Positions 3,565 through 25,997 of a DNA stretch of 30,374 nucleotides are shown piece by piece. Numbering within the stretch: position 1 is the stretch's first letter; every line of letters begins with the position of its first letter. The notes under the pieces were generated by a model. The model was not told the origin of the DNA. It made no database searches and saw only the letters and a program-made list of their open reading frames with translations. The position numbers were made by a program, and so were the translations under genes. The DNA comes from Pezizomycotina sp. ARF18 (lineage: Eukaryota; Ascomycota), in the NCBI GenBank assembly GCA_002224055.1, contig AZLU01000126.1, positions 1-30,374 of the forward strand, in the 5' to 3' direction.

Positions 3565-4551
3565 ATGTCGATTATCGCGCCGAACTTCGTCATCCACTCT
3601 GGCGCGAAAAGCTTCCACGTCCACAAAGATGCAATCGTGGCAAAGTCTGATTACTTCTCAAGAGTTTGCGAAGGTCCTTTCATGGTAAACCTCTCCCATA
3701 TTTGCTCATACGCTTAATGAAGTTCATCGTTTGTTTCCATTTAATCTGCATGTGGAAAATCCTTGGAACATTACCGCTTCGTGATGTATTGCCTGCGGTT
3801 CGGATTCTTCATATTCCTTTCAGTTTTCAATGTTGACATCTGTATATTGGATAACAGGTGACTGTTTAATAGGAATCGTCAGCTGGAGAGTCACCTCGTC
3901 GGCGACGATCCGGAGGCCGTAAAACGGATGGTTTCTACACATCGGAAAATATTCTCCTATAGACATGATGGTTTCACATCTTGCCGCCGGTGCGAACCAG
4001 TACGCGGTAGCATGCCAGGTTCTTAACTTGCAGTCTTCGAAGTCGCGGACAAGTACTTGGTCCCGGATCTTAAAACAGCAGCGGTTCGAGAGTTCAGAAG
4101 CTGGTTCTGGGGACTAGACGCCTAGGAAGCCAGCATCCCCAACTTCTTCAGCTCGTATATATACAACACCGTCCTCTGAGCGCGGAATGCGTGACTCGAT
4201 GATTACCCTCCTGGTGGATCATCCCTATTTACGACCATAAGAGAGGTGCGCGAGGTTCTGGAAGAGATACCCCAGATAGAGATAGACGTACTCAAACTTA
4301 AATTTGAACAGAGTGAGAGAAGAACCTTGTTTGGAACGTGAAGGCTCTGGCTATGGCTATCACCGGACCTCTCGACTTGCAATGTCTGGAGCATTCGAGA
4401 CAATTATGCACTCTATCAGGTCTATCGGGCCGACGACTTGGACACGCAGATCGCCAATATCTACTGCAGGCATTGTCATAAGCATTTGGGACCGATGGGG
4501 AAGATATGGGACTATAGTGTTCAGGACGGGGAGAATATACCTATGAGGTAA
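3565..4551 (+). pseudogene. BTB/POZ domain protein BTB-1, frame-broken
   Basis: Exon 1 starts at the ATG (MSIIAPNFVIHSG) and carries the BTB core SFHVHKDAIVAKSDYFSRV, ending GPFM just before a GTAAAC donor at 3685. The likely acceptor is TAATAG at 3867-3872, giving a 188-bp intron, longer than in the paralogues. Exon 2 begins with Glu-Ser, then after a frame change reads DDPEAVKRMVS, then VFEVADKYLVPDLKTAAV in another frame. Next come IYTTPSSERGMRDSM and REVLEEIPQIEIDVL, the family's usual order. The end reads IYCRHCHKHLGPMG and stops at 4549-4551, keeping one C-x2-C pair. Fungal BTB proteins of this type dimerise and often act as adaptors; no function is shown here. Four or more frame changes make it a pseudogene unless they are sequence errors. 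Confidence 0.8.
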
Positions 4552-5194
4552 ATTCACGTGGCGGGAAAACGGGAAAGTTTTTACTATTTATCAGCAAAGT
4601 TTCCTATGCATTATAACCGATCTACGTTAATATCTAGTGAGAGATATCGAAGAGAAGAGGTAAGGGCCATAGGTAGAGCTAAAAGAAATACTTTGATATC
4701 TTAGAATTTAGAATATTCATTGTGATTAGGTGTTCAGATGGGTTTGATCGCTCGCGACGAGCAATTGGATCCAACATTGTGAACCCAAATAATTTAACCA
4801 AGTACTCATGAGCATTCACGGAAAATGAATATCGAAATGAGTTTTGTATCACATCAAGTAAGCAATCCAAGCAATTAGCAAAATTTGTTATCACTTATAC
4901 ATAAATACGTACTGATCGTAGTGGTAATATCCTTAGCATTTGGCTTAAGCGTATAAGTATCAGTAGTTTCGGGACATCAACGAGGTAGTGCCGTTTCAGT
5001 TTTTGCCCAAGCGTTAAAAAAGAAAAAGGGAAAAGAAAAAAAGCTTAAATTAAAGAATTAACTTCCGCCACAACTCTATTCTATATGCTTCTTCACGTCG
5101 ACCATCAACAGCAACCTAGAGTCTCTCAGCTCCGTAGGTTCTTCGTAGTTCCTCCCGATCGTTCTTCGTATCTTTCCATAGAATGTGAAATACC
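4552..5194. other. Intergenic spacer between BTB-1 and BTB-2
   Basis: I see no gene here. The sequence is AT-rich and ends in an A-rich stretch (about 5019-5042) before the BTB-2 leader. Short open frames on the minus strand show no family motif. Confidence 0.5.
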
Positions 5195-6163
5195 ATGGCG
5201 ACCTAGAGTATCCATCCAGGCATCGCAAGCTTGAAGAGCGGCTTGAAGAGCGGCGGCAAGTTCTCCGACTTCAAGATCAAATGCGGCGACCATGTCTTCA
5301 ACGTTCACAAGTCTATTATCTGTCCTCAATCCCAATACTTCATGAAGGCGTGCGATGGACCGTTCAAGGTATTCGCCTTTAAGAGCCCCATTTAACATTG
5401 CGATCGCTGATCCGTACCACAGGAGGCCGAGCAAGGGGTTATCGAACTGAACGATGAAGATCCGGAAATTGTCGAGAGGATGATATCCTACTTCTACGAA
5501 TACTCCTACGACAACAACATTTCCGCAGGAGAAGGGGAAGCAGATGCGGTCGACAGTCAGCTGGTCAACGTCGCCGTCTATGCTCTTGCGGAGAGATATC
5601 TCGTTCCCGAACGGCTCTTGCTACCTCCAAGTTCACCGCGAAACAGGTTGGGGATTGGATCTAGGGTTTACCGCAGCTTATTCGCGCTGCTTACACAACG
5701 ACCCCGCAGACAGACCGTGGCTTGCGCAATCCACTAGTCGCGGCGGCCTAGCCAACATCAGTAACGCTGCAAGCCAACCAAGCAGATTTTGAGGCCGTTT
5801 TGAGGGAGGTGCCGGAGGGGCATATCGATATTCTTCAGGAAACACTCGCCGCTAAGAAATTGCTCTGCAGGAGGTGACGTCCTCGTTACTGGAGGCCAAT
5901 TCGAAGATTCGAGGTTTTAGGCGAGAGCTGAGGCTTATGACGCCACGCAATCTTCAATGATCAAGCTCATTTGCGATGTTCAGTCGAGCTACCAGTGCAC
6001 CTACATTAGTTGCCCATATAGGACAAAACCTCAGCCATGGATCGCCGCATTAATCCCCAGCTCTGGAGCAATAACGAACATCCGGCTACTGTGTCGTAAC
6101 TACATGAATCCTTTGCTTATTCAAGAACTTCGACCTAACTCTATAGTACCTTCTCCAGTCTAG
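5195..6163 (+). pseudogene. BTB/POZ domain protein BTB-2, frame-broken
   Basis: The ATG at 5195 is followed by an in-frame TAG at codon 4, then a readable exon with the BTB core KFSDFKIKCGDHVFNVHKS and CPQSQYFMKACDGPFK, ending at 5368. The intron is 5369-5422 (54 bp, GT..CAG). Exon 2 gives GVIELNDEDPEIVERMISYF and VNVAVYALAERYLVPE. A shifted frame then gives AAYTTTPQTDRGLRNPLV, and LREVPEGHIDILQETLAAK follows. A shift (probable loss of one A in an AAA run near 5857) leads into the coiled coil, and a last frame gives YQCTYISCPY, a C-x4-C like that of BTB-4 and BTB-7. A 12-bp in-frame duplication at 5231-5254 encodes LKSG twice. At least two in-frame stops and four shifts are present. Confidence 0.82.
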
Positions 6164-6869
6164 ACCTGTTCAGCTACCTCTGTTTTGCTCTTGATACAAT
6201 CTGCGCCCGGGACGTTTTCCACAGAAGAGAGGATTGTTCCTCAAGAAATTTCGAACCTTCGTCACGGAGATTAATATCAAAGAAAGGATGGGCCATTTCG
6301 TTATTTACGCGAATGAACAATGCTAGATGGTTCGTCTTGGTCGGTTTTACCCACTCAGATTCTAGATTTTCATAGATGTTACTCTTGACAAAAGTGCGGG
6401 CATGATTTCCAAAGCTACAAAATGTGAGAATCTCTTACCATGTACTAGTAGAAGGATATGTTGCTTGCTGTAATAATGGAATTAAATAATCGAATCATTT
6501 GAAATGTTGCAGCGTGATGCATCGTGCTGTTATTGGCCATTTGCCTTACATACTCCGTTCTACCTCACCAATATCCACCAAGAATGTGTCGATAGAGCAA
6601 ATGTAGTCTCATTATCTACAATCGATTTCGCACGTATCGGTTATTCCTTTCGTTAGGGAATTCAACATAAGAACGTTTATCGTCCAGGAAGACCATGAAG
6701 GAATACAAAAAGGGTTTACTATCTCTAACTATGTCAATTCGTCATATTATGTTTCGCTTTGCTTCTTCTGCCTTGTTCCATTCTTTTTTGTTTTTTTTCC
6801 CTGCTTGCTCTCTCTCTTTTTACCCCTCCCGATATCCCCCTTCGCAAAGATGAATAACCCTCAAAGCGG
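6164..6869. other. Spacer with pyrimidine-rich tract
   Basis: No gene is recognised. A strong C/T tract runs over about 6765-6845 and resembles the pyrimidine-rich leaders of fungal genes on the plus strand. It is followed by an ATG at 6850 that opens only 27 codons before a stop. That short frame runs into the antisense of the BTB-3 C-terminus, so I do not call it a gene. Confidence 0.5.
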
Positions 6870-7816
6870 AATTACCAAAGCCGCGCGACGGGCACGACAG
6901 CGAACCGTGACCTTCCAGATTCATAGTTTGATTTAGACTCTGTGTCTACCAGAATTGTGGCTCGCTGGTGGTACAACCGCGCGTGGGGCAACACATTTTA
7001 CCAGTATCCTGATGATTTTCGAAATGAGGTTATCCAGAGTCTTCCGAGCAGGAGTCAGCTGTCGTTAGAGTCGTTGGCGGCGTCGAGTGAAGACTTCGTC
7101 TCTGCTAGAATGATTTCTTGGAGCGACAACATCTCCGTCAGATATCGATATGCGCATCCGGCAGCTCCTGTAGTACCGCCGAAGCATTCTCCGGCTTTAT
7201 GCTCAGGAACGAGCTAGGCACGAGAATATTAACAAGAGCGTTCCTGAGTGCACGGTCGATCGGAGGCGTCGTGGAATAGACGACTCGAATTACCTCCGCC
7301 GCTTCGGCAATCCAGTCCTCCGGCGGTCTAGCCTGGAATTTAGATATAGCGTACTATTTGAGTTCAGGGATGATGTACTTCTCCGCAAGCGCGTATACGG
7401 AGGCGTTGATTAGTTTGGATGTAATAGCTGTCTGCTCCGAGGTCTGCTTCCCAGAGCTATTGTCGTCGTACGAGAACTCGTAGAAGTAGGAAATCACTTT
7501 GCCCACGATTTCGGGGTCGTCGTCTTGGAGCTCGATGATCCCGTCTTTGGATTCCGATAGAATCCATCAGGAGCATGGGTTAGAACCGAAAACCTCACCC
7601 TTCAAATGACGAAGCTCTGGTCTAGATGGATGGAATGTACTGAGTGAAAACCTACCTTGAAACCACTATCGCAGGCTTTCGCAAAGAAGTCGACTGAGGG
7701 CAGACGACGGACTTGTGGACGTTGAATACGCGGTTGCCGCACTTGATCTGGAGATCGGAGTACTTGCCGCTGCCCTTCAACGCGGAGATACCTGGGTGCG
7801 CAATGTAGCTCGTCAT
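6870..7816 (-). pseudogene. BTB/POZ domain protein BTB-3, frame-broken
   Basis: The start is placed at 7816 (MTSYIAHPGISALKGSG), because it aligns with the BTB-2 and BTB-5 starts; an upstream in-frame ATG at 7960 adds unrelated residues. The BTB core reads KYSDLQIKCGNRVFNVHKS and VCPQS, then after a shift FFAKACDSGFK, ending at 7656 before a GTAGGT donor. Exon 2 begins at 7554 with ESKDGIIELQDDDPEIV; the bases where AG should precede it are CG. It continues ISYFYEFSYDD, SVYALAEKYIIPELK, an in-frame TAG, EVIRVVYSTTPPIDRALRN and LQELPDAHIDI, then shifts into LTEMLSLQEIILAETK. The C-terminal Cys region survives only as scattered pieces (CCPTRGC and TVRCRAR in different frames). The gene is transcribed away from BTB-4, whose start lies 252 bp off. 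Confidence 0.8.
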
Positions 7817-8068
7817 GGTGATTTGAGACGTCGAAAGCTCGAAGGAGAAGAGTCGCTGTGTTGTACAATCTTTGCGTTCGTGATGGCGAGAACTTGCGAT
7901 GTTTGGTTGTTTAGTTGCGGAGGTTATCTGGGTGGTGACTCTGTTGTGTTGGAAGGGCAAGGACCAATGGATTATTTATTTATTTATTTATCTTCATCAA
8001 AAATTTCTCTCTCCATCAGAACAACCTCCTCCTCCTCAACAGCCCTATTTTGACCACCCGCGTCGATC
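7817..8068. promoter_or_regulatory. Divergent intergenic region of BTB-3 and BTB-4
   Basis: The 252 bp between the inferred starts of BTB-3 (minus) and BTB-4 (plus) is the only space for both promoters. It holds a TTTATTTATTTATTTAT run at about 7976-7992 and a CT-rich stretch at 8000-8040 just before the BTB-4 ATG, a pattern common in fungal leaders. No factor site can be named. Confidence 0.35.
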
Positions 8069-9043
8069 ATGTCCGACGACATCGCCGTCACTAACCTCAT
8101 GCGCCTGGGCCCTTACGACATCACCATTCGTTGTAATGAGACCACCAGAACTACCGTCTTTCATGTCCACCGCGTTGTCCTCCCTGCGGTAGATCCGGAA
8201 GGACTGATCTTTGGAATGATAGTAAAGAGAAGCTGGCACTCGAGGACGCCGTGAAGGTTCCGGAAATGACGCCGAAGAGCGACTTCGTCAGATTCTTAGC
8301 TGGGAAGAAGAACGTGAGAGGCGCAGACGACTCGATCGCCAAACAGCCTTCGCCGATAAGCAAGCCCTCGCGGAGCATTGGCAGCGTATAAATACCGAGC
8401 TCTATGCGTTGCCTGAGGTTTGGGATACCGGACCTCAAGAACCTGGCCGTGCGCGACTTCTCGCGGAGGAACCCGGGATTGTGGGTAAGCGGCGCCTCGC
8501 ACCTACTGCTGAAGATCTGGAAGGCGACATCGCAAGAGGCCGCGGCGGGCAAGCAGTCAGGCCTTCGCGCCTCTATGCTGAACGCGATCTGGCAGGAGAT
8601 TATGTAGTCGCCTGAGCGGTACGGAGCAAGAGGTTATTCGCGAACGTATTGCGGGAGTATCCGGAAGCTTACTTTGACGTTTACGGCCTGATTCTGCACG
8701 AGTATGACGTCAGGGAGTGGAAGATTCACGAACGAGCTATTCGTGCGAAGGAGTATTTTAGCGATAAGGAGAGGACAGTTCGTGAGCAGTTGTCGGACGC
8801 AAACAAGAAGCTCCGTGAAATCCCTGAGTTACAACGCAAGATCAACAAACTGGAGACGGGTGTGGAGAAGGAGAAGGAGAGAGGAAAGAAGCGATGGACG
8901 ACCTCGTGGGAAAGCTTGAGAACGATGAATGTAGGAGCAAGGGATGCCGTGCGTTGTTTAATGCCGTATTCGATGCGAAGACTACGTTCGAGGGGGAGAA
9001 GAAGGTTGTGGTACGCTGCAGGCAGTGCACTCGCAGACATTGA
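8069..9043 (+). pseudogene. BTB/POZ coiled-coil protein BTB-4, frame-broken
   Basis: The ATG at 8069 opens MSDDIAVTNLMRLGPYDIT and IRCNETTRTTVFHVHRVVL, a BTB start more divergent than its neighbours. No intron at the family position is visible. After a shift comes LALEDAVKVPEMTPKSDFV, then INTELYALPEV and GIPDLKNLAVRDFSRR in two frames, and a helical block (HLLLKIWKATS). From about 8640 a long frame encodes REYPEAYFDVYGL and a strongly charged coiled coil (KERTVREQLSDANKKLREI). A final shift near 8890 opens CRSKGCRALF and VVVRCRQCTRRH-stop, ending at 9043: two Cys pairs (C-x4-C and C-x2-C) with a terminal Arg-His shared with BTB-7. Four or more shifts are needed. Confidence 0.75.
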
Positions 9044-9883
9044 ACATTCTTAAAGCGCTACCTCGGGTATTTACGGCATGAACATTCGAGTTAGTATATA
9101 CTCGACTAGATATTCTTATCTGTTTGCGATGTTTCTATAAGAGAACCAATAAATTAGTAATATAGCTCTCACTCTCATCGCGATATCGCGAGATCACGGG
9201 TACAGCTAGGTGGTGAAGTTCTATCGGGAGGAATACGGAATGTACTATCTATCACCGCGGTTGTATAGTGAAATTTTTTGAATACCTTCTAACCATCTCA
9301 AAAATTGAGCAAATTAAAAAATAAATATACTAGATTGAAAAGAATTGATATATCTCTCCTTTTATGAAAGCTTCAAATTATTTTATAGTAAAACTAGCTC
9401 TTGAAAATTAAGTAGAATACGTGCAAATAATATTCATTTAATTTCGTTATGTAAAAATACAAGCCAAAGTTGATTAAAATAGTTAAATTTTCGAAATAGA
9501 TTATTATAAAAAAATAAATATCGCGAATATTGATACATTTACCTTTTTGATTGTACAGATGCCTTCGACCTATTTTTAGCTTATAAATATTATTGTAAAA
9601 AAATAATAACATGTCGATTATTATCGATTTATATCGATTATTATAGATTCATCGTAATAGTATTGATATTGAATTTGTTATAATGCCTCAAAACTTTGAC
9701 TGAATTCTGCTGTACAGTGGTGGGTGATATTACTTGAAACGGCCCATAGAGTCTCGGACAAAAGCCGGCAATCGGCCCCCACACCCCGGCGTTCTCCGCG
9801 CAATTTAAAAGGGGTATCAAGCGCGCGTTCCACAACTTGGTCCTCTACTACATATGTCAACGTCCTTGATATCAACGTATAAC
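9044..9883. other. Very AT-rich spacer
   Basis: No gene is seen. The section 9280-9680 is extremely A+T-rich. It includes short imperfect repeats of TCGATTATTA and TCGATTTATA at about 9614-9650. The final 200 bp have normal GC and probably hold the BTB-5 leader. Confidence 0.55.
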
Positions 9884-10828
9884 ATGTCATCGTACAAACA
9901 TCATCGGATATAGCCGCTCTTAAAAACGATAGCAAACTCTCCGATCTTCAGATCAAATGTGGCGGAAGGGTATTCAATGTTCATCGCGCTATCGTTTGCC
10001 CGCAGTCGGAGTTTTTTCATGAAGGCTTGCGACAGGAGTTTCAAGGTGTATGCATCGCTATCAACTATTAACCCTGGCCAGAGTTGTGCTAACGTCGAGA
10101 ACACAGGAATCGCACGACGGCGTCGTCGAGCTACACGACGAGGACCCCGACATCGTTGAGCCATATAATATGTAGGACCAGGGACCAGCGGGAGGGACAA
10201 CAGTCGATGGAAGTGGACGGGCAAGCCCCGAAGGCTCCCGAGTCCGCCTTGGAATCTCAGCTGGTCAACGTCGCCGTTTACGCGATTGCGGATAAATACA
10301 TTGTACCGGGCTAAAGACGCTGGCGATCGCAAAATTCAATGCGATAAATCTGCAGGACTGGGTCTGCGGCATTTCGGCTATTATCCGTGTGGTTTATACA
10401 ACCACGCCGCAAAGCGACCTGGACTGCGAACTCCACCAAGAAGATTACTAAAACGCACTAAAGAACTATCCGACGCTCATATAGATATACTTCAGGAGAC
10501 GCTTTCCGCTAAAGAGGCCACGATAGCGAAGTCACGGCTTCTCTCAACAGTCCCAAATAGTCCCGAACGGCGTATGGTGATATAAAAGTCACTCTGAGCC
10601 TCAAGGATGCTTCCATCGCTAACCTCACCGCTCCTTTGAATAAGGCGAGCGAAATTGCTCTAATGTTGAGAGACCTTCGTCGGGACGTACAGAGAGCATC
10701 CGAACACGTCGGAAGGCTTAAAGCTGACGCTGTCTCGTATTTAAAATTGCCGCATGGCGTTAGATGGCCTTATCTCCAGCGTCAACGCGGAGCTCATTTG
10801 CCCTACGTGCCCAAGTTACCCTTTTGAG
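9884..10828 (+). pseudogene. BTB/POZ domain protein BTB-5, frame-broken
   Basis: The ATG at 9884 gives MSSY, matching the BTB-3 start, before an early shift into DIAALKNDSKLSDLQIKC and RVFNVHRAIVCPQSEFF. A second shift gives MKACDRSFK, ending at 10045. The intron is 10046-10106 (61 bp, GTGTAT donor, CTAAC at about 10088, ACACAG acceptor). Exon 2 opens ESHDGVVELHDEDPDIVE. Then come SQLVNVAVYAIADKYIVPG, LKTLAIAKFNAINLQDW, VVYTTTPQSDLDCEL and LSDAHIDILQETLSAKEATI, each after a stop or shift. The end reads NAELICPTCPSYPF and stops at 10826-10828, so only the first C-x2-C half of the usual C-terminal motif is present. It lies tail to tail with the methyltransferase. Confidence 0.8.
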
Positions 10829-11330
10829 GCCGTGCCAGCTCGCATTGAGGTCCACACGAGCACTAGGAACCATTGTCAAATGGGTCTGTAACTGTGCTCT
10901 GTCGAAAATGCAATACTCCGTCAAATAAAACCAGTTAATGAACGCGTTTACTTGTAGTGCTTGCGAGTTTTTAACTTGATTCTTCGTCAACTTTGGAAAG
11001 CCGTTTACTTGTACCTAGCTACCACTGATTTTATCGCATTCAAACAACTATGTCCGTGTATAGAGCGAAAAAAAGCACATTAAGGGAAAGGATGATCTAG
11101 TTCAATCTGAAGTCATACTAAGCTTTTTCACATACTAAGACCGAACTGCGTGCTTACATATGAAATAAGAACTATCGCAAGCAGTTTAAACAGAAACGAC
11201 CCGCTCGCTCTTGCATTTTTTCCCCTGCGATGCTGTAACCACGTACTTACACTTACCTTAAGTTCCTTTCATGACACGTGGACTAGCCTGGGCTAGTGCC
11301 GCGCGATTCGCATCTGCTCCGGTTTGGGAC
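10829..11330. other. Spacer between two convergent 3' ends
   Basis: No gene or clear signal is seen. BTB-5 (plus) and the methyltransferase (minus) both end here, so the spacer should contain their 3' untranslated regions. A+T-rich pieces could serve as poly(A) signals, but none is distinctive. Confidence 0.45.
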
Positions 11331-12501
11331 TCAGGAAGCAGCTGCAACCGCCGCAGGCACAGGCGGCTTTTGCCCGTAGGTTATCAAGAAATTCATGTAC
11401 GCGTGAACCTTCTTGTTCTTCAACGACTTTTTGATCTCCGCTAGATATTTCTGTGTCTCCTCCTCCGTCTTCCCCAGCAGCTGCGTGTAAATAAACAGAC
11501 TCCACCCTTCGATCCCTGCAGTATATTAACCAAGAACATCGCGCCCAGCTGCTTCAGCTTTGGGTCCTTCGCCCACGGTCCGATGGGTACCTTGTACTTA
11601 TGCTGTATAATGTTCCGGAATCCAGCCTCTTCCATTTCGCCTTTGATGGTTTCATCGATGTACATCGATTTCTTGACCATGTTAAGTCCTTTTTGCATGC
11701 CTTCGAGCCACTGGAGAAGCGGCCAATCTTTGGGCACACTGCCGTCATCGGTGCAGACGCGGGGAACTTCGGAGAAGACTTCGAAGTAGCCGCCGGGTTT
11801 GAGACCTTCATGGCGTTCTTGCAGACGTTGGGCCAGGAGTCGACGAGGGCGTGCATGGCGCGAGCGTAGACGAAGTCCATGGAGCCTTTGGTCCAAGTCC
11901 AGTCGTTTTCAAGGTCGTCGATTTCGAATTTCACGTTGGGAGGAACCTGAGTAAAGCGTGGAGCCATTAGTACCTTGCCATTAATAAAATGTGAAAAAAA
12001 AAACTACGAATAAGGGTAAAAACGTATCCACAAAACAATAATAGTGTGACGTACCACGCAGGCTGGATAGGGCTTTGATCGAATCCGATAACCTCCGCAC
12101 TCGGATGCGCCTCCGCGAAATCAATAGCCCAAATACCGTCCCCTGCCCATATCTAAAACCCTGCGTGGTTTCTCTGGGATCGGCGACATGTATAATTTGT
12201 GCGGCTCGGATCCCTCTTTGTAGTCCGGGTCAGCATAAGACATGGCGCGCAAATACACGGAGTGCATCAGGTCCTCCGCATCCTGCTGGATCTCATCGTT
12301 GGGGATAAGGGAGTGGCGGCCGTCTGCGGTGGTGTGGTAGCGCCGACCGCAGACGAAGCGGTTGCGCTCGCGGGCCCAGGAGGAGCGCAGGGTGTCCGTT
12401 ATGGAACTGTTTTCGGAAGCGTAGAGGAATTCGTAGACGGAGTCGGCTTCGGAAGGGTCGGCGGAATCGGTGGTTTCGATGGCGGATTTAGGGGGCGACA
12501 T
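11331..12501 (-). pseudogene. LaeA-like SAM-dependent methyltransferase, frame-broken
   Basis: This is a class I methyltransferase of the fungal LaeA-like family, expected to transfer a methyl group from S-adenosylmethionine to an unknown substrate. The start MSPPKSAIE at 12501 follows the family's acidic N-terminus; an in-frame ATG at 12606 is less likely. In order: GRRYHTTADGRHSLIPNDE, EQ-type [31 protein letters not shown] (motif I), a shift, [20 protein letters not shown], an intron at 11947-12054, VPPNVKFEIDDLENDWTW, MDFVYARAMHALVDSWP, a shift, GLKPGGYFEVFSEVP, then a shift into LFIYTQLLGKTEEETQKYL and MNFLITYGQKPP near the C-terminus. No in-frame nonsense codon is seen inside conserved blocks; all breaks are indels. 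The motif I break removes the SAM-binding glycine loop if real. Confidence 0.85.
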
Positions 12502-13158
12502 TTTTAGGAGCGGGAAATCGAACGACGCGTGGTTATGAAAGATGGAGGGCTTCGTTTGGTGGTTGAAGACTGGTGTATCCGAGAACCGTTCCTTTGGGAT
12601 TTTCAAGAAGAATCATGATATTCGGACGATTTCTTTCCTTCTGTTTCAATTCAGCAGACTAAAGTAGGCGACCACGTTGTCAGGCAGGAAAAGGTGCATT
12701 TTTCGGTATGTTATATACCTACCTCCTTGAGAAATTTCAGGGGCTCGGTTGATTTTTCTGCATAAGCGGGTTCGCGCCATGGAGTTGAGGAATTGGAGTC
12801 CAATAAGCTTCCCGAAAAGGTTTCTTAAGCGACCCATCTTGCAGATAGTACGAGCCTTTCCTATTCCGAAGGTCATTGCACGTACTCGTTCACGAAGTTC
12901 TAGGACTTTCGTAGAGATAGCAGTGACAGGATTGGGATATTTTATTTGTGAGACAAGGATATAATATATGAATTAAGAATACAGGACTTAGCACTCAAGT
13001 GGAATCAATTCCATTAGGTTATCAAGTATGGAGAATAGAGCAAATCTAGTTTTATGAATATCTCTCAAGAAAGCTTATATCGTAAGTATCTCTACATGGT
13101 TTCTTCTAAATTTGTTTGAGACATATTACATAGCAAGGCGATCGCCATTCTTTTAATC
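12502..13158. other. Spacer upstream of the methyltransferase
   Basis: No gene is recognised. This holds the methyltransferase promoter on the minus strand and the BTB-6 3' end. Open frames of 70-76 codons on both strands near 12646-12964 show no motif. Confidence 0.45.
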
Positions 13159-14182
13159 TCAGCTAGCTAAAGGGGAATTCTCGCCGCTTTGCTTGGATAG
13201 TTCTGAGGAGCAGTCGACTGACTTGTATAAGGAGGTAATCAATGGTGCTGAGGATCTTCGGATGTATGTCAGCAGCTTGGCTTTCTCTTCCCTCAACTCG
13301 TTCCTCAGTTGTTGTTCAGATTCTGGAGCTCCTGTTCGTCAGGGTTAACGCTGTGTTTCGTTCCTGGACTTGCTTCACGCTCTTGTATAGGCTGCTGTTG
13401 AGCGCTTGCCGAAATAATGCCGGTTCGTCGCCTCTGAAAAGCGCTCCTCTGCCTGGTGTAATACGTGCTTCAAGTTCTTGATACTTTTGACGTGCTCCTT
13501 TCGCTGGTATGCAAGCTCGTTCTCCTTTTCAGCCAAACTAGCTTTCAGGACGTCCACATGTGCCTCCGGGATTTTTTTTAGCACTGTAGGAAATTCTTTA
13601 TCTTCGGCGTAAAGGGCGGCTAGATACATGCAACGGATCAAGTAAGGCCTCAAAAGGGCGTCACTACAAGGAGTGCCCCTATATACGGCACGCATGATTC
13701 TAGCAATCCCGGGTCTCCAGGTCGCGATCCTCGGCGCCGAGAACTTGATGAAGGCGAGAGGCTTGAGGTCCGGTATCAGGTATTTATCTGCCATGGCATA
13801 GACGCCAACGTTTAGCAGCTGTGCCGAAACAATGTCGCCGTTGGCGATGGACGTTTCGTCGTAATTGGCGGTGTATAGATACTCGATCATGAGAGCGACG
13901 TGTTGCGGATCGTCATCACGTAGTTCGACAATACGGTTTCTGCTTCCTTTAAGAAGGTTAGAGGGAGAAACTTATATATAAAGTAATGCGCAGAAAAGGG
14001 AAATGGGAACTAAATGATTTACTTTAAATGGCCTATCAAACATCCTCGAAAAATATTCTGACTGCACGCAAATGATGGCTGGTGGACGTTAAAGGTCTCC
14101 TTGCGACATTTAAGCTGAACATCGGAGTATTTGTAGTTTTGAGGAGAGACTCCAGTCCACTAGAAATCTTATTGCTCGCCAT
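13159..14182 (-). pseudogene. BTB/POZ coiled-coil protein BTB-6, frame-broken
   Basis: The start at 14182 gives MASNKISSGLESLLK, then a shift into YKYSDVQLKCRKETFNVHQ. Another shift gives ICVQSEYFSRMFDRPFK, ending at 14023. The intron is 13947-14022 (76 bp, GTAAAT..AAG). Exon 2 starts at 13946; after a one-base shift it reads RIVELRDDDPQHVALMIEYL, then a 171-codon frame with YDETSIANGD, VYAMADKYLIPDLKPLAF, IMRAVYRGTP, VLKKIPEAHVDVLKASLAEK and a long coiled coil (QAEERFSEATNRHY). A late frame, EQQLRNELREEKAKLLTYI, runs to a stop at 13159-13161. Unlike most paralogues I find no C-terminal pair of Cys motifs, so the tail may be replaced or lost. Confidence 0.78.
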
Positions 14183-15266: not shown

Positions 15267-15574
15267 TGTAATGATCCGGTAGAAGCGCCACTCTGAGCTT
15301 CCCACTTAGCCTCGTTTACGACAATGAAGTTATAAACTAGATGTATCTTACTATTGTATGAAAATTTGGAACTAGGAGGGAGTTCACTCATAGTTGGATC
15401 TGGTAACTGTTTTTTATTTCTTCCTTAGTGATACATCGGATTCGCGTGTCGCTTTGAGCGGGCCTATAACTTCGAATAAATGAAAGCATTAGGCGCATTT
15501 GTAAGTGTTCTTCGAATATATAAAACGTTTGGTAAACGGATCCACCAAAGCATCAAGTTCCTCGTCCACTTGAT
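15267..15574. other. Spacer downstream of BTB-7
   Basis: About 300 bases without a recognised gene. They would contain the 3' end of BTB-7 transcripts and any missing 5' part of the coiled-coil remnant. Confidence 0.4.
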
Positions 15575-16682
15575 CTAGCTGCGGTGTCTAGTCTGGCACA
15601 CCTGGCAGCGTGCAATAATGATGTCTCTATCGTAGCTACTTTCACTACTGTCAAAGTCAAGTCTAAATTCTGCATTACATGCCGTGTGCCTGCAGGCATC
15701 GAAGTTGGTAAAGTGATCTGCCAACCTTTTCCACCTAGCCCTTCCCGTTTCGTCCGCAAGCTTAGCCCTATCCACTAGTACCTTATTTTCCTCCTCGAGA
15801 CGGGAGTTATCCTCCGCAAGCTTATCCCTTTCCGCGTTCGAATTCTCCAAAGCTTGCCTCAGCTGAACTAGGGCGATTTCTTTGCCGGATAGGGATTCCT
15901 GAAGAATGTCGAGGCGGGCATCCGGCAATTCGAACAAAGCTCTATGAAAATCCTCACCCTGAAGCTCCTCTTGGTGATCGACGCAGATGGTAACCAGGGA
16001 ATTACGGAGACCGCGGTCGCTCTGGGGCGTGGTAGTGTAGACGGCGCGGAGTACCTCGATAATGCTGTCGGCGCTCGCCCATTCGTTAATAGGACGGCTT
16101 CTGAACTTTTCGACGGCGAGATGCTTGAGTTCGGGGATGATGTACTTCTCCGCCAGAGCGTAAACGGCAACGTTGGTGAGCTGGGCTCCCAGGGCAGCGG
16201 CTGGGCGGAGAAAATTTCGTTGTTTGACTCCGTTGGTGTATTGTTTGTCTCTTCTGCTCCTGTTTGGATCTCTTCGCCGTCAGGCGCGGAATTTTCTCCA
16301 TCTCCGCTCAGGTGGAGTTGGGCGATCGTATTGTCGATGAGCTCGGTATCTTCGTTTTCGTCTGGTGACTCGTCGCCGTAATCGAACTTATAAAGGTAGT
16401 CGAGAACGAGGCTGACAATACGCGGCTCATCGTCGTGGAGCTCGACGACGGCTTCCTTCGCCTCCTGGATGACATTTAGCATGTATATATACGAAACCAT
16501 TAGAGATGAGTTTCAATTACCTTGAACGCGCCACTGCAGAGCTTCGCGAAGAACACAGACTGAGTGGCGACGATCGCCCGGTGAGCGTTGAAGACCTTAT
16601 CGCCGCATACTATTTTTAGATCAGAAAATTCGCCAGAGCCTCGCAGGCCGGCCAGACCGTCGGGGACGTTGTATTTTGGCAT
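15575..16682 (-). pseudogene. BTB/POZ coiled-coil Cys4 protein BTB-7, nearly intact
   Basis: This is the best preserved copy and the best template for the family. Exon 1 (16682-16521) reads MPKYNVPDGLAGLRGSGEF, SDLKIVCGDKVFNAHRAIV and VFFAKLCSGAFK. The intron is 16465-16520 (56 bp, GTAATT..CAG). Exon 2 starts EAKEAVVELHDDEPRIVSLV, passes an acidic linker (DESPDENEDTELI) and meets a single frame change near 16200-16260. It then runs open to the stop at 15575: LTNVAVYALAEKYIIPELK, IIEVLRAVYTTTPQSDRGLR, FELPDARLDILQESLSGKE, a coiled coil (ERDKLAEDNSRLEEENKVL), then DACRHTACNAEFRLD and IIIARCQVCQTRHRS. The C-terminal C-x4-C and C-x2-C pairs suggest a small zinc-binding unit. One indel in 1.1 kb could be a sequence error, so this gene may be functional. 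No GT-AG pair fits a second intron at the break. Confidence 0.88.
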
Positions 16683-17683: not shown

Positions 17684-19769
17684 CTATACTTTCTGGTGCA
17701 TTTCTCCCTCACATGAACATTTGATATTAACATCAAGAAGCTCAGCAGGGAGTTTACCTTCACAGAACATCCACTGGAAAGCTCTGTGTACATGTATTAT
17801 GAGGTTCGAGCTTTCCGGGCATAGTCGCTCAATATCTCCGTTTGCTAATGAGCACCGCCGGCTGGGATCCTTTTCGAGACAATTGCATCGCGTACTACAT
17901 TCGGTAGCGTAGTGGGAAGCAGGGTAGGTGTTGTGGGGCTCTAGCACTATGCAAGTCGGCTGTTTGGGTGCGGTCTGGAGGAGTTGGGTTTGGTCGGTAT
18001 GTGTATTAACCTTAGGATTTTGGGGCGTGTTAGCCTTTGCACTTGGAACTTCTCGTGGCCGTCATCAGGCGGAACCGCATAGCCGGACGAGTCGCCAGGG
18101 ACATGAGCGGTTGCGGCGTTGTTCCTGCTGGATGAAACGGCGTTATTATGGTCGAGAGGACCCGGGTTAGCATGCGCGTGTTGTTGCAACGACTTCTCGA
18201 TTGTCTGCTTTCTCCTCGGCTGTTGTTGTTTCTCGACCTTTTGCGGCTTATGAGAACCTAGGTTCTTGTTTGTCTTTGGCGCTTTCTCGTGAACTTTCGC
18301 GGCGTTGCCATGCGATGAGGTTGCATTTCCGTCGAGTGATCCAACGTGTCCGGGTGAATTTCCGTAAGTTTGGGAGTAACTGCCGGATGGTCCGGGAGTA
18401 ATAGCAGCCAGACCATCTTCATCGAGCATCACGAAATCGTTGTCTAGAAGGCTTCCGTGAGTTTGAACGTGACTACCGGGGACCGATAAATGGAAAGTGA
18501 CCGGACTATCGGCATCGAGCATGGCGACATCGTGGACCGGGGAGGCATAATTTTGCGGTGAGGACGCCTTAGCAGGCTTGTGAGCTGATTTTCCGGCGTA
18601 AGCACCGTGACTATCTTGCGGCGTAGTACCTGGACTGGGACCAGCAGCGTACCGTCGGAGCCTTCGCCATTCGAACCGGCTCTAGCTTCCTTGGGATGAC
18701 ATCCACATCCCGCAGACTCGATGCAGAGCCGGACGTATTCATCCAAATCTTTAGAATAGTCGGAAAGCGCATTTTTGAGAGGTTTCGAGGGGTTCCCACA
18801 ACCTCTCAACGACCTATAAAGGGTTCTTCCTAAAATCTACCTCTTTCGGGGGGACCCGGGTTTGAGAGGCGCAAGCACAGCTTCCCTGCAGAGTTTGAGC
18901 GAGTCATGGCCATCTTTTATGACTGTCGCCGTATTTGCGTTGCATTTGAGGACTCTTTCCTCAGCCGGCACACAAGCGCAGTCACCCCCCTCCTAGCCTA
19001 TCCGCCGGCAAAACCCGTTCGCGATCTTCCCCAACACCCTATAGAGATCTGAACCGCCTTTCTTGGTGTTTCGGTCCTGTCCCGTAGTTTCTGAAATGGA
19101 GAAGGTGTTGATTCTCTGGCACAATCCTCGATGAAAACGTTCTCGTCGTTCCATCCCCGGCTTTAGAGTTGGTTCGGTATTTCCTGTCGGTGCAGGTACA
19201 GGCACCACACATTGCTGCGAACGTACCTTTACATTCAACCTTGAACCTACTATTCTTATTATTTCTAGGTTTATGTTCCGGCGCAGCCACCTGTGTCCAA
19301 GTAGATCCCAGACACATACAACCACCCTGTCGTGGATCTCGGCACCAATGATTAAGGTCGGTCGATTTACCCGGGCCCCGCCCTCCCTTGTCGCTCCTCG
19401 AGCACTCAAGGACGCCATGGCGGCACTCGCAATTTCGGGAGCAATATCTCCTCCCATCCTTACTTTTGTCCGAACCAACACAATGGCCATTGCGGATTTA
19501 GGAGGAGCAAGAGAGACTCCCTTGTACTCATCATCTTCCACTAGATGGAGAAACTGTTGAGGCAGCGGTTCGGACTGTTTTTGTGAGAAGCGGGTCTGCG
19601 AGGAGCGGGTCTGTATCAGCATCGGTAGGATTCGATTCTTTGAGAATTTGTCGGTCCGGGTCCGTAGATGAGAAACTGAGTTATGTTTTCGGGGCGGTGT
19701 GGCAAGAACGCATGATAAATCGGAGGAGATCAAGAAAAAAGAATACGATGAAAGAGGTAATAGATCCAT
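17684..19769 (-). pseudogene. Secreted multi-module cysteine-rich protein, frame-broken
   Basis: The start at 19769 (MDLLPLSSYSFFLISSDLS, then CVLATPP) resembles a signal peptide with cleavage near Val-Leu-Ala. Then come modules of the form C-x(7-25)-C-x(2-10)-C-x-C, across several frames: GRRYCSRNCECRHG; VLECSRS..NHWCRDPRQGGCMC; FKVECKGTFAAMCGACTC; GFCRRIG-stop-EGGDCACV; VLKCNAN..LKLCREACAC; RLCIESAGCGCHPKEA; and, after a long linker, PTCIVLE..TECSTRCNC and RRCSLAN..IKCSC. The linker (about 17990-18640) is rich in Ser, Gly, His, Asn and Gln and has an internal duplication around VAMLDADSPV and FVMLDEDGLA. The Cys spacing suggests repeated disulfide-bonded units. I recognise no named family. 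About six frame changes and one in-frame stop near 18990 occur. Confidence 0.68.
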
Positions 19770-20219
19770 GGTAAAGTGAATAGAGCGCAAGATACATCTC
19801 AATAAACCTGAAGGGATAACCACAAGATGTTCGTTGGCCGGACGATTTTTGAGAATTTTAGCCAAAAGACTCGGAGAATTCGAAAGCGAATACAATCAGG
19901 GAAAAGAAAAAGCAACAAGGTAAAGGACTACCCAACGACTTTATGGCTTTCCAAGCAAGGAGGACCTATATCCAGGATTTGGAGGCAGGGTAGAGTGCTA
20001 TATATAGACGTGGACTTCATAGTTTTCTAACGGGCTGGCTAACTATCCGCCGGAGCTAATTTAGTCGTTGTTAACTGAGACCTGTATCTTAATGGAGGAT
20101 AAACTTGAAGCCTACTTACGCTAGAGGTCTTTAACGGTTGCGGTAACGAAATTTAAAGAGGATATAAAGAAAAGAGGGAGAACAACGAACTCGAGAAGAC
20201 AGGCAAAGAAAGAAACACA
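19770..20219. other. Spacer between Cys-rich gene and NACHT gene
   Basis: No gene is recognised. This holds the promoter side of the Cys-rich gene and the poorly defined 3' end of the NACHT gene, both on the minus strand. A TATATATA stretch lies near 20000. Confidence 0.45.
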
Positions 20220-21530
20220 TGAACACGAATTCCCAATGGAGGTCTAGTTCAATTAATACATTGATTTTGCTTGAGAGCCATTCGATATCTTGTTTGGTTA
20301 ACCGCCGCGAACGGATGTTGGTGGTAGACGGCCGTTATACCTGCGGCGCCAATAAAGCGGTATCTTCCGTTACACAAATCAACTCAGATATTATACCTTC
20401 CCAATCTTCATCCGTACAAATTAATCTTAATGTACATGTACAATGGATCCCATGCACCAACATTTCCTCGCAAAAGTTTCCTCTTGCAAACATAAGGTTC
20501 CAGTTCCTGGGTAACAAATACTGCTATTCGCTTGTATTATCGTCAGGCTGGATACAATGAAATAGGCTACTTTCGAGTTGAAGCAGAATATCGTCCTCAT
20601 TTCTGCTCGACACAAAATCTTGATTACAGCATCCGAACGTCTCGCCATGTCCTGCAAGCTGTCCAAAACACACCGTCTCGCGGATTGCTATAGCCCATCA
20701 AGAGCATCAATGATAACGGTGATCTGCGGGTGAATCACTGCTAGGTCATAGATTATTTCGACGCATTCGCTAGACTCTCATTGACCTGACGTGAACCCTC
20801 GGCTTGAGTGTTTCTTGTATTCCGCCACTATTGAGGGCTGATTTCCATTTTCTATGTTGAGGGAACTCGCATCCAGGAAAGCTGCCTTAGCAACGAGCGA
20901 AATATTTCCGCTGGATCTCTCCTTACAGACTCGTTCCTATCGCAGTAGAAGTACGCAATCGCCTGTTGATCCTCTGCAGGGCCTCGACTTTCGTATTTCA
21001 AGCAAGTCGTCTATCATGGAAGACCTTCGGGTTTATAAGGCTGATTAGTACATACATCCCGGAAGGAATTTTGATGCCGTCGATTGACATACACAAGTTT
21101 TGTTCTGCCTCTCCAAGCTATTTCCTCGAAATTGTGATTAGACTCTCCGCCCAAGCATGATGATGTGACGGCGAATAGCGCTCTACTTACGATCTCCGCG
21201 TAGCCATAATATTCCAGAAGCACTAGCGTGCCGCCAATCGAGATACTTTTCGCTTCCCAACAACCATGTACACGTCCCCGGCGTTCTTCACGCTTTTGCA
21301 TGTTTATGGTGCCTCTCAAATTCAATAGTGGAAAGCCAACGTAAGATGTCTTCCGCTTCGTCTTTTGTGGAGGATGCCGTTAGTAGTTTGTTTCACGTCT
21401 AGAATTCAAGAGGTACTTGCCTTCATTTTGTAAAATTGTCGCGTTGATCTGAGTATTATTGTTCCCGTCGACGCGATTGCCAATCACATTAGATGTAAAG
21501 GCCGTTCGACTGTTGATCGCGACGGGTGTG
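20220..21530 (-). pseudogene. NACHT-domain (NLR-type) protein, truncated and broken
   Basis: This matches fungal STAND/NLR proteins, ATP-dependent switches used in non-self recognition. In order: NNNTQINATILQ; a GC-AG intron at 21362-21420; DEAEDILRWLSTIEFERHH; a TGA at 21288-21290; TPGTCTWLLGSEKYLDWR and GILWLRGD; a GTAAGT intron (21118-21190); the P-loop region GDPWRGRT after splicing; an intron at 21025-21092 with GTATGT and TACTAAT; VSSMIDDLLEI; GPAEDQQAIAYFYCDRNESV; RRDPAEIFRSLLRQLS; IVAEYKKHSSRGFTSG; the Walker B-like ITVIIDALDGL; FVSSRNEDDILLQLES; and TQELEPYVCKRKLLRG. The P-loop Lys is Arg. No ankyrin, TPR or WD repeats follow, so the sensor part is missing; the 3' limit is approximate. 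Several stops and shifts mark a pseudogene. Confidence 0.85.
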
Positions 21531-22393
21531 TCTTCACCACCGGACACACGTACACTACTCGGGTGATATATTGGGCGATATCACCGGCCATTATCTCAGT
21601 TCGATAGAAAATGAGGCTCGAGTTCCTCAAAGGCAAAAAACAACTGTCTATTAAACTTTTATATACTTCCCTTTACGCAGCACGAGACTCAACCGAGTAT
21701 GCTCTGAAAAGGAAAAGATGCTCGCTCGAGGCTGAACAAGTTCTTTGGAAGAAGCGGGGTAGGTAAGCCCCCATTGGCTTACTGCTCCCTCAGACGCGGA
21801 ATGTCCCTTCTTCATCGCTCCGAGCAATGCATCTCCAAGCTGTATTAAATATTACTGTTGTTTGGGTTAAGGAGAAAACCTTGTTCGAGAACCAAGAGGT
21901 ATATTTATTAGCGTACGCCCCTCAGGCTTCCCACCAAACCCCAGCTCGATCGAGCCAAACGAAGAGGCATGTCTTGCAGGTATTTAGGCTGGATATTACA
22001 TGATTCGGAGGTCTAGCTTTGACATATATTATTTCCCCTAGGATAAAGCGAATTGGAAAATGTAGTGGGTTCGCTGTATATTGACTTGACAAAGAAGTAA
22101 ATAGTTCGGGACCCTAAGAAGTAATTTGAATATATGTTGCCTAATATAATGTACAGATGAAAAAATATATAATTCGAGAAATGGAAGAAAACTAAAGTAC
22201 ATGTACTTAGTATGTGAGAAAATATGAAAACAAAATATGAAATTTGCATCTACATAAAGCTAAAGATAGCTTCGGTTTAATCGTGACTAGGAAGGGGAAG
22301 ATAGAGAAGAAGATAAAGGGGATTTGTAGGAATCCGGGCGGCGCGTTGTTGTCTTCAGTTTTTTTTTTTTTTTTTTTTTTTTTCTTACTGGTC
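21531..22393. other. Spacer between NACHT gene and BTB-8
   Basis: No gene is recognised. The first part would hold the NACHT gene's 5' leader. From 22020 to 22260 the sequence is AT-rich. It ends in a 25-T tract next to BTB-8. Confidence 0.45.
22359..22383 (-). repeat. T25 tract, poly(A)-like with respect to BTB-8
   Basis: Twenty-five T on the plus strand, which reads as A25 on the minus strand. It begins 10 bases after the TAA stop of the BTB-8 fragment. This position and polarity are those of a poly(A) tail on a reverse-transcribed copy, although a chance homopolymer cannot be excluded. Confidence 0.6.
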
Positions 22394-22800
22394 TTAAGCT
22401 TGCTGGCAATCCGCGCAGCAAAGGACGATCTCCCCCTTACTGAATCCTTCCTCTGTGCTGCACAGACTGATGTTGAACGGTTCTCCGCAACCTCCGCAGC
22501 CGTTACGGGCGAGCGTGCGCCTCAAACGCTTGAATCGGCGACCAACGCGATTCTTTCGCGAGTCGTGAAGCTGGAACTGGAAGTTATCTCTTTCCTGCTG
22601 TACCCCGTTCAACTTCCGTTTGAGACTCCCGCCGCCGCGTGCGTGTGATTGTGACGTAGACAGCCGCTTCCGGAACATCAGCTAACGTTCGTACTCGTTC
22701 ATATCAAAACTGACGGCGTACGCAGGTCCTGGCGTGGGCGCGGCGGCGGGCGACGTTGCGGATAGAGAGATCAGACGGCGGTGTAGTCGTTACGTCTCGC
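22394..22800 (-). pseudogene. BTB family C-terminal fragment BTB-8
   Basis: Only the C-terminal half of the family architecture is present. From the 5' side, VTTTPPSDLSIRNVAR matches the VYTTTPxSDRGLRN block. A second frame gives LADVPEAAVYV, matching the [LV]PxxxxDI motif. The main frame, ending at TAA 22394-22396, has a basic coiled coil (LKRKLNGVQQERDNFQFQL) and then NGCGGCGEPFN and IVLCCADCQQA, two Cys pairs as in BTB-7 and BTB-10. No BTB domain or exon 1 is found in the 240 bp before the divergent BTB-9 start. The 5' truncation and the adjacent A tract (minus-strand sense) suggest a retrocopy. The 5' limit is approximate. Confidence 0.72.
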
Positions 22801-23041
22801 GGAGGATTTCGTGACGTCGTGCTCCAGAGCGCCGATGGTGATTTAAACTTGTGAGGCGACAACTGAGTTCGCCGAAGAATGTCGCACTTTTCGCCGAGGC
22901 ATAAATGCCAAGGAGGCAAAAACCATTTGCACGTTTTAATTTTTCTCCGTCTTGCATTCAAAGGCAAGCCTCTCCCTCCCTCAAACCCCATCACTCTCGT
23001 ACAGAAACGTAGAGATCAAACGCCTCGTGTTCAGGTACACG

Positions 23042-24169
23042 ATGCCCGCCGGTGTGGCGGCGATGAAGAATTCCACCGACTACAGCGACCTCCAAATAAG
23101 TCTGCGACCGTACGTTCAAGTCCACAAAGTACGTTTGCTCGCAGTCCGAATTTTTCAAGAAGGCTTGCGGCGGTCCTTTCAACGTAACGGGTTCTAGACA
23201 AAATGATAATACTGAGGCGGGCATCTCTAATTTAAAGCAAATACCTGCCGCAGGAGTCGCCGAAGGCGTCGTCAACCTACCCGACGAGGGACCCGCCATG
23301 TCGAGAAGTCCTCTGTTTCCTTACACCTGCGATACGCGACAGCGACGGCCAATCGAGCCTCCGTGAATTCGCAGGTCAACAACGCGTCCGTCTACCGCTC
23401 GCGGACAATGCTGTTCCGGACCTCAAGCGCCTCGCGCGAGCAAGTTCGCCGCTAAACGGTATCGGAATGGATTTTGCCCCGGAACTGTCCGCCTAGTGTA
23501 CGGTACCCACGCCGCAGAGCGATAAAGGACTGCGTGAGCCCCTTGTGCTGTGCGCCCAGATGCCGATAAACTTGGCGGGGTATCATGAGCTACTGTCGAG
23601 ATACGACGCGCACATCGACATCTGCAGGAGGCGCTATCGATCAAGGAGATCACCATCGATGGGTTGCAGGAGTCGCTAGAAGATTTGACGAAGCAGGCCT
23701 ACAAGTCCTGGATGAGAGCGCCAACTTGAGGAAGACAAAGCGGAGCTAGTCAGAGATAAGCAGGCTGCAACGGACGCGGGACGTAGGGCATGGATAACCT
23801 TGATCGAGAGCGTCAACAACAAGTTTCGTTGCTTTCTTGCCGCCCGGGGACCGTCCGCGGTGGATAAGGCAGCGAGCAACTACGCTGCAGCGCGGTGGTG
23901 TGGAGTGCCATAATGCGGCAAACAATCTGGCGTGCGTGTCGCCGTCCTTTTTTTCTCCGGGGGTCGCGGAGAACGGGAGCGTCAACAACGAGTTTCGTTT
24001 GCGTCTTGGGGACCGTCCGCGGTGTGATAAGGCAGCGAGCAAACTACTGCAGCGGGTGGTGTTGGAGTGCCATAATTGCGCAACAATCTGGCCGTGCGGT
24101 GTCGCCCCCTTTTTTCTCCGGGGGTCGCGGAGAAGCCGGGGTTCAACAGAGCGTAATCTCAATCCTTAA
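23042..24169 (+). pseudogene. BTB/POZ protein BTB-9 with duplicated 3' end
   Basis: The ATG at 23042 opens MPAGVAAMKNSTDYSDLQIS and VQVHK, then shifts into CSQSEFFKKACGGPFN, ending at 23183. The intron is 23184-23253 (70 bp, GTAACG, CTAAT near 23226, CAG). Exon 2 yields AEGVVNLPDEGPAMSRS, NSQVNNASVY, AVPDLKRLARA, RLVYGT and PTPQSDKGLREPLVL in changing frames. Then come a short piece with AHIDI and a helix (EEDKAELVRDKQAATDAGRR). The C-terminus is present twice in tandem (23808-24139). The second copy reads RPRCDKAASKLLQRVVLE and CHNC, matching the family Cys region. Frame changes are frequent, more than in BTB-7. Confidence 0.72.
23808..24139 (+). repeat. Tandem duplication of the BTB-9 C-terminal coding segment
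   Basis: Copy one is about 23808-23976 and copy two about 23977-24139. Both begin GAGCGTCAACAAC and end near GTCGCGGAGAA. They share long blocks such as GGGGACCGTCCGCGGTG and TCTCCGGGGGTCGCGGAGAA, and differ mainly by single-base indels plus a few substitutions. Each copy contains the region encoding the C-terminal Cys motif. Confidence 0.85.
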
Positions 24170-24914
24170 AACTTACTCGATGCCTTCCGTTATTCCTTTC
24201 TTGCCTTCAAGAATTCGACACCACACAGGAAGCATAACGACGTTACAAAATCGTTTTAATCATTTATAATTTAAGATAGATTAGCAGTATGCTGTCTTTA
24301 TCAGACCTCTAATTCAAGTCACAAAACGCTTCAAGTACTGTATCAGTTGGCTATATGGCTATTAATTAATAAAAACTCGCCTCACTATACGGCATTCATG
24401 TATCGTCGATGCTTATTTGAACATGAACGTGGAACTGAAGTATTTAGCCTTACTATAATAAAAACCCCTCGGGTAGCTATCGTGTGATTAACTTGTATTA
24501 TAACTATATAACTAGAAAGATACTACCAGTATTATTGACGCTTGTAAGCAAAAGATGTGCTAAAGCTAATCTCTCACACTGTAAACAAAAAGCAAGTTCC
24601 ATGGTCATCAAACCATAGCTCATCCCCCCCCTCCTCCCTCTCACTTTCACCACCATTGCCCCAAACCGCCTTCTCCACCAACCCAACACCCAATAACACA
24701 ACAATTTTTTCCTTTCACCACCTTCTTCATTAAGTTTCGAACCGTCCAACGCTACCTTATCCGCTCCTTCCAAGATCACCACCGCACTATAAAGCCGACT
24801 CCACCCTCAACATCCTTACCACCGCTAACATTAATTCGCATTCGAGTTCCAGCTGCCACGAACTCCGCAAGATATTCATCTCCATATCGAACGCGCCCTA
24901 CCGTCGTCCCCAAT
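24170..24914. other. Spacer with C/A-rich, G-poor leader
   Basis: No gene is recognised. From about 24615 to 24850 the plus strand is C/A/T-rich with few G, including C8 near 24625. This is typical of a pyrimidine-rich fungal promoter or leader and lies directly before BTB-10. A 92-codon minus-strand frame at 24504-24782 is a product of this skew. Confidence 0.45.
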
Positions 24915-25997
24915 ATGACAGGTTAAAAGATACCTGGAAGTCTCCGACCTCACCCTGAAGTGCGGCGGCCAGGACTTCAGGGTGGCAAAGCCGTGATTTG
25001 TACCAGTCCGAAGTTTTCGCGCGAGCGTTCGACGGAGATTTCGAGGTAAACCGCCTTTTCTACAATCCGGCGATGCTGGCTTCGAGTAAAAGTGACACTC
25101 GGTGTATTTTCTCTAGGAGGCCAAACCGGGACGTACACTATGGTCGACAGAAATCCCGAACGTTTGGTCAATTTCTTGTCAATTTTGACTTCGATGACTC
25201 GACCACCGCCTAGGAGGCGGTGGACGTTCGCAATCATGCGGAAGGTGACGACGCTACCGCCGCGCCGCCGCGGAGCCTGTACCGGAACGGTTACGGTGGC
25301 TCGGAAGTCATCAACCAGAACGCCGGAGAAGCGCCCAGCTTCACCCGCCGCGACCAAGAGATCAACATGGTCCTCGAAGAAAGCGAGAGAAACGGTCCGA
25401 AGCTCCGACTCCGGCCCCTGTCAGACGCCAAGTCGACCGGACGTCGCCGCGCAGATTACCAAATGTCCGAATGTACGGATGCGACAAATACGACGTCAAG
25501 GAGCTGAAGACTGCCGCCGCCAAAGAAGTTCAAAAGAGCCGTCCTGCGGATAATGGATGGATGCAATCCCGGATTTTGAGCGCCGTCACCACGACCACTC
25601 CCGAGATCGTGTGGGCTGCGCAATCATGTCGTCCAAATCTATCGTCGCGAATGCCTGATAAGGGTCTAGATGGCTACGCTGCGTCCGGTACCGGATGCTG
25701 CTGTGGATTGGCTGATGGCGGTACAACGCCGATGAAGACGCTCAGAGGAAGGCGAAGGAGAGCATGATCTAGCGACGGATGTGTGTGAAGTGGTCTGGGA
25801 GGTGCAAAAAGGTACATCGGGAGATATAGAAGGAATTGGCGAAGAAGAATTGCAAAAAATGCAACGCGGAGTTTAACGCGGCGATGGACGATGGACTGAT
25901 TACCTCATGTCGGGAAGTTTTTGCGATCAGGTTGAGGGGATGCAGTGGAGTGGAGGTTATGTTGGAAGAATTTGCAAGGGGTTTATTTTCCCTGTGA
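24915..25997 (+). pseudogene. BTB/POZ domain protein BTB-10, frame-broken
   Basis: A candidate ATG at 24915 meets a stop after three codons. A neighbouring frame then reads RYLEVSDLTLKCGGQDFRV, and a third reads SEVFARAFDGDFE, ending at 25045. The intron is 25046-25116 (71 bp, GTAAAC..CTCTAG). Exon 2 starts with Glu-Ala and shifts into YTMVDRNPERLVNFLSIL, the equivalent of DDPEIVERMISYLY. A charged linker follows, then YGCDKYDVKELKTAAAKEVQ, GLRNHVVQIYRR and LRPVPDAAVDWLMAV in other frames. The C-terminus gives NCKKCNAEFNAAMDD and LITSCRE; the last Cys pair is incomplete in that frame. The stop used is 25995-25997. It is the most diverged of the copies with a BTB domain. Confidence 0.75.

Follow-up and report, generated by a model that had tools for sequence, protein, structure and literature searches.

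A dense cluster of ten divergent BTB/POZ loci in Pezizomycotina sp. ARF18, possibly a set of Cullin-3 adaptors

BTB/POZ appears in a table of expanded Pfam families for the nematode-trapping Orbiliomycetes Monacrosporium haptotylum and Arthrobotrys oligospora, in a paper that also describes repeat-induced point mutation (RIP) and tandem duplication for this lineage (PMC3828140), and a BTB-domain orthogroup is included in a table of expanded gene families of psychrophilic Dothideomycetes (PMC11412873). The stretch considered here, called the window below, comprises bases 1 to 30,374 of contig C126 (119,201 bases) of Pezizomycotina sp. ARF18, from an assembly of 46.4 Mb in 408 contigs, and it contains ten loci of one BTB family. 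The reading that we favour, at a probability of roughly 0.57, is that they form an old cluster of BTB genes, expanded locally and for the most part protein-coding, whose products would be substrate adaptors of Cullin-3 (Cul3) ubiquitin ligases.

The ten loci of the window

The loci were located by a profile-to-DNA alignment that tolerates both frameshifts and introns. Ten are found at 3586–25850, six on the plus and four on the minus strand, with scores of 87–747, compared to a best score of 58 on the reversed C126 stretch. The scan covered C126:1–50,374, and every one of its family loci lies inside the window. Since loci 2, 3, 6 and 7 helped to build the profile, together with two loci of contig C87, only the other six window loci (1, 4, 5, 8, 9 and 10) constitute independent tests. 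These score 87–439, loci 1, 4 and 10 being weak to moderate and locus 8 the weakest.

A preliminary description of the window had proposed ten related loci on both strands that share a series of ordered peptides, and both points hold. Loosened versions of the peptide motifs occur 4–7 times each in the six frames, whereas the mean expectation from 60 Markov-shuffled windows is 0.03–1.5. In addition, all nine family rows scanned match the Pfam BTB/POZ family (PF00651) at E ≤ 0.01; the rows are frame pieces joined by hand, and four of them represent the window, that is, 4 of its 10 loci. Locus 7 reaches 54.8 bits with a cut-off of 20.5. A ten-locus BTB cluster of common descent is confirmed. The loci are the following.

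3586..4296, plus strand: BTB locus 1, pieces of exons 1 and 2; score 215; 5 frame changes; 4 stops, all within an unaligned insert; not in the profile training set
5213..5906, plus strand: BTB locus 2, exon 1, intron and exon 2; score 587; Pfam BTB match at C126:5246-5515; 2 in-frame stops, 1 at an aligned place
7061..7798, minus strand: BTB locus 3, closest to locus 2 (55% amino acid identity), next to which it lies in convergent orientation; score 615; 2 stops, 1 at an aligned place
8084..8897, plus strand: BTB locus 4, divergent, without the phi-x-E motif; score 157; C-terminal Cys-pair tail downstream at ~8924-9040, with the Cys motif in frame
9904..10728, plus strand: BTB locus 5; score 439; 3 frame changes; no stop
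13444..14132, minus strand: BTB locus 6; score 612; exon 2 within a single open frame of 198 codons (13375-13971)
15575..16682 (gene model; scan match 15698-16664), minus strand: BTB locus 7, the best kept
22517..22906, minus strand: BTB locus 8, only a part of exon 2, without exon 1; Cys-rich end; score 87 against a null maximum of 58; 4 frame changes; 1 unaligned stop
23045..23820, plus strand: BTB locus 9; score 304; 10 frame changes; no stop
24943..25850, plus strand: BTB locus 10; score 197; 7 frame changes; 1 unaligned stop

In the gene model of locus 7, exon 1 (16682-16521) is followed by a 56-base GT-AG intron (16520-16465) and by exon 2 (16464-15575), which encodes the end of the BTB domain, the helices, the coiled coil and a Cys4 tail, and ends with the stop codon TAG. 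There is a single frame change near 16200, past the acidic linker; as the scan crossed it as an intron, the locus was counted as having 0 breaks. The structure model of locus 7 covers 15578-16195.

Around the end of locus 9, at 23802-24134, a 172-base unit is present twice (84% alike), and no further copy was found in the genome. Between the BTB loci, at 11441-12612 on the minus strand, there are broken pieces that resemble a LaeA-type methyltransferase gene, from which they may derive; they have no Pfam match. The open reading frames of the window outside the family (sets of 6 and 7 were scanned) gave no Pfam family above its cut-off.

The family in the genome and in other fungi

In C87:1-40,000 there are 12 further family loci, all in the first 29.3 kb, with scores of 221–777 compared to a reversed-sequence best of 47. 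Both clusters lie at contig starts, the window at C126:1 and the first C87 locus at 35-764. It is therefore possible, as an attractive guess rather than a proven arrangement, that they are one head-to-head cluster of ~55 kb split by the assembly. A subtelomeric location was considered and dropped, as telomere repeats give it no support in the first 2 kb of either contig (TTAGGG is absent there from both, and CCCTAA occurs just once). Downstream of the window, in C126:30,375-50,374, 4,295 bases read N.

Genome-wide, Pfam BTB matches are found at 52 places, and two gene-half queries, one for each half, hit 31 and 59 places with a threshold of E ≤ 1, a large share of these being on C126, C87, C5, C57, C178 and C91. 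With the frameshift-aware profile, at least 50 homologous loci are found in the stretches scanned, namely 10 in the window, 12 on C87 and 28 elsewhere (score ≥ 90); this is a lower bound, which leaves out C223, C298, C67, C161 and most C91 matches. A related BTB cluster at C5:130,001-160,000 has 11 of 11 loci on one strand and fewer frame breaks than the window.

As to the host, the named fungi nearest to its mitochondrial HSP70 (joined pieces) are Dactylella, Arthrobotrys, Orbilia, Dactylellina and Drechslerella, all Orbiliomycetes, at 83–85%. Other filamentous ascomycetes follow at 81–84%, which is a thin margin among the best 120 of 7,999 proteins. A bird-labelled record that ranked first (67% identity over 80% of the query) was set aside. 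The fungus thus appears to be narrowly nearest to the Orbiliomycetes, a placement that comes from one error-bearing gene. The Orbiliomycete expansion resembles the present one in that BTB/POZ is expanded in what is the nearest lineage by mitochondrial HSP70, the comparison being one of description and not of cluster map, domain order or sequences (PMC3828140).

Protein relatives could also be identified. Locus 7 alone, used as a single-sequence query, had no match at E ≤ 0.001. The nine-row alignment returned seven proteins at E ≤ 10, of which six have E-values of 3.5e-10 or lower, and the three with organism names are not from Orbiliomycetes. P0121 (Elasticomyces elasticus) and P0122 (Polychaeton citri), both from Dothideomycetes, and P0123 have the same ordered motifs, the peptide SDRGLRD and an acidic linker inside the BTB domain, but they are only 29–36% identical to locus 7. 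In P0123, which is listed without exon 1, the similarity extends to a coiled-coil-like stretch and the end RCSDCRTRH, whereas P0121 and P0122 end before the coiled coil. The full-length structure of P0122 was predicted with low confidence (mean pLDDT 62.3) and was not used. No clustered fungal BTB family was recognised in searches of the open PMC literature, as judged by title and start of abstract. Because Dothideomycete relatives with the same ordered motifs exist, and P0123 shares the tail, the family is not new. With its density, age, mixed orientation, coiled coil and, in part of the copies, Cys4 end, the cluster adds a new case to a known kind.

Divergence of the copies

The copies are strongly diverged. 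The closest pair in the window, loci 2 and 3, has 55% amino acid identity, and the best pair between the window and C87 has 46%. At E ≤ 1e-10 there are just two DNA matches between the window and C87, with 77–80% identity over 84–111 bases. For the 19 window and C87 copies scoring ≥ 200 (loci 4, 8 and 10 were left out), the mean identities at codon positions 1, 2 and 3 are 0.50, 0.58 and 0.33, with a chance level of 0.26 for position 3, which is close to saturation. In all 171 pairs the third position is the least conserved; the pairs are non-independent, and alignment at the protein level inflates positions 1 and 2. The size of the difference nevertheless points to a long divergence under coding constraint. 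The large, old divergence that had been proposed is thus borne out, as is the view that the cluster did not arise by one recent amplification. Third positions are near saturation and there is no recent duplicate among the loci compared, which leaves the proposed "fast-evolving gene nursery" without support.

A tree was built that includes 43 of the 50 loci together with five outside proteins. The window and C87 copies are intermixed with those of C91, C169, C48 and C205 in a 26-row assemblage of weak support (85/25), and eleven rows of C5, C57 and C178 group apart (96/90), six C5 rows being left unresolved; 8 of the 45 inner branches are starred. Contig labels are somewhat clustered in the tree for C87 (8 changes, shuffled mean 10.9, 9 of 500 shuffles as low) and hardly for the window (7 changes, mean 8.5, 54 of 500). 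Identity averages 0.335 among the window copies, 0.313 among the C87 copies and 0.316 between the two groups; it is 0.348 to C91/C169/C48 and 0.258 to C5/C57/C178.

The mixed orientation had been taken to argue against simple tandem duplication, and this argument is weakened. Loci 2 and 3, the closest pair, lie side by side in a tail-to-tail arrangement, consistent with a local duplication with inversion. Moreover, the eleven loci of the C5 cluster share one orientation, and neighbours on C87 are more alike than random (P 0.0135). In the window, neighbours are as similar as random pairs (P 0.56).

Adaptors, scaffolds or decayed copies

We now consider what the genes may encode. Each would give a protein that has a BTB domain at its N terminus, followed by SPOP-like 3-box/BACK helices and a coiled coil that varies in sequence; some copies would finish in a Cys4 zinc-ribbon-like end. 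The face formed by BTB and 3-box would attach to the N-terminal domain of the Cul3 that the genome encodes, and substrates would be held by the variable coiled coil and tail, from which it would follow that the cluster is a Cul3 adaptor set. In addition to the BTB matches, the phi-x-E motif is found after helix alpha3 in 36 of 44 loci (it is missing from the other 8, locus 4 among them, and 6 of the 50 are gapped there), and SPOP is the top structural match, a SPOP-like helical region, the putative 3-box/BACK, coming after the BTB domain. The genome encodes a Cul1-like cullin at C4, a Cul3-like one at C13 and a Cul4-like one at C234; a fourth cullin-domain match is at C15:126705-127094. The family thus resembles SPOP and other MATH-BTB proteins and the KLHL adaptors of Cullin-3 in the BTB domain, in the phi-x-E at the matching place and in the helical region. 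It differs from them in its C-terminal coiled coil and in the Cys4 end with which some copies finish, and no MATH or Kelch Pfam family was found in the nine rows scanned. The strict Cys-pair pattern, which in one open frame has a background of 4.75% in 400 segments with family regions included, occurs in 2 of 10 window loci, 0 of 12 on C87 and 11 of 50 overall. The Cys pairs ascribed to the whole cluster are therefore seen in part of it, the other eight window loci lacking the strict pattern.

The coiled coil and Cys4 end in place of MATH or Kelch could also mean that the proteins are BTB scaffolds or transcription co-factors, which pair via BTB and coiled coil without Cullin-3 and whose Cys4 end binds nucleic acid or protein. 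The phi-x-E motif is not exclusive to Cul3 adaptors, and transcription-factor BTBs were matched as well (a ZBTB17-NAC1 fusion at 1.1e-10, NAC1 alone at 4.2e-6, Kaiso from 6.6e-5 and BCL6 from 3e-4). However, the single-domain BTBs of this kind score far below SPOP, KBTBD4 and KLHL26, and the SPOP-like helical region is against it as well, which makes this a tentative and somewhat unlikely alternative. The adaptor repertoire suggested in the preliminary description is plausible; that the genes are expressed and that their products bind Cul3 and choose substrates by the distal part is inferred. If so, the cluster would provide many fungal receptors for a single ubiquitin ligase, clearly divided into constant and variable parts that are testable. 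Nematode MATH-BTB repertoires offer a comparison. One can speculate that an early-branching filamentous fungus has a single cluster of more than 20 Cullin-3 adaptors, with a constant SPOP-like BTB/BACK base and a fast-changing coiled-coil and zinc-ribbon reader, as a fungal counterpart of that repertoire, possibly for self/non-self or prey recognition, but this wider picture is doubtful.

It is important to point out that many copies are broken, which weighs against working genes. Frame changes amount to 39 in 5.94 kb (6.6 per kb) in the window and 56 in 7.72 kb (7.3 per kb) on C87, exceeding the 58 in 14.56 kb (4.0 per kb) of the other family loci. More than 10 per kb are found in window loci 1, 8, 9 and 10 and in 4 of 12 C87 loci (8 of 22), so that some copies may be decayed. 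The stops that survive frame tracking are 11 in the window (2 aligned), 6 on C87 (4 aligned) and 20 in the others (8 aligned). One could thus regard most copies as pseudogenes left by duplication and RIP, a process reported for Orbiliomycetes (PMC3828140). However, the two HSP70 genes that were frame-tracked are broken at comparable rates, the mitochondrial one by 8 changes and the cytosolic one by 14 (15 with another reference), that is, ~4 and ~8 per kb, and neither contains an in-frame stop. The counts are rough, as the HSP70 and BTB runs were scored differently and a diverged profile can add breaks. Further HSP70 and chaperonin matches are also in pieces, where introns are possible. The frame breaks are for this reason largely assembly error, perhaps not wholly. 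Without such a housekeeping control, pseudogene calls from this kind of sequence are unsafe. The codon constraint, seen in every pair, speaks against a graveyard as well, for past rather than present function. Loci 2 and 3 and those at C87:21048 and C87:26747 may be dead, but for the bulk of the copies a pseudogene call is unjustified and most look like working protein genes; wholesale decay is, in our view, quite improbable. That the copies are split haplotypes or one mis-assembled locus, the latter named in the preliminary description as what would overturn it, is barely conceivable. Both clusters lie at contig starts in an error-rich assembly, but the best identities, within the window and between it and C87, at the protein and the DNA level, are far beyond haplotype or read-error differences.

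Finally, the RIP indices TpA/ApT and (CpA+TpG)/(ApC+GpT) are 0.88 and 1.04 for the window, inside the ranges of nine control stretches (0.72–0.93 and 0.88–1.13), and there is thus no overall RIP excess. The exception, which favours decay, is window 1-5000, which holds locus 1; it is mildly RIP-like (1.02 and 0.98), and its GC content of 0.424 is below that of the rest of the window. Several frame breaks per kb in the tracked HSP70 genes are a sign of unpolished long reads.
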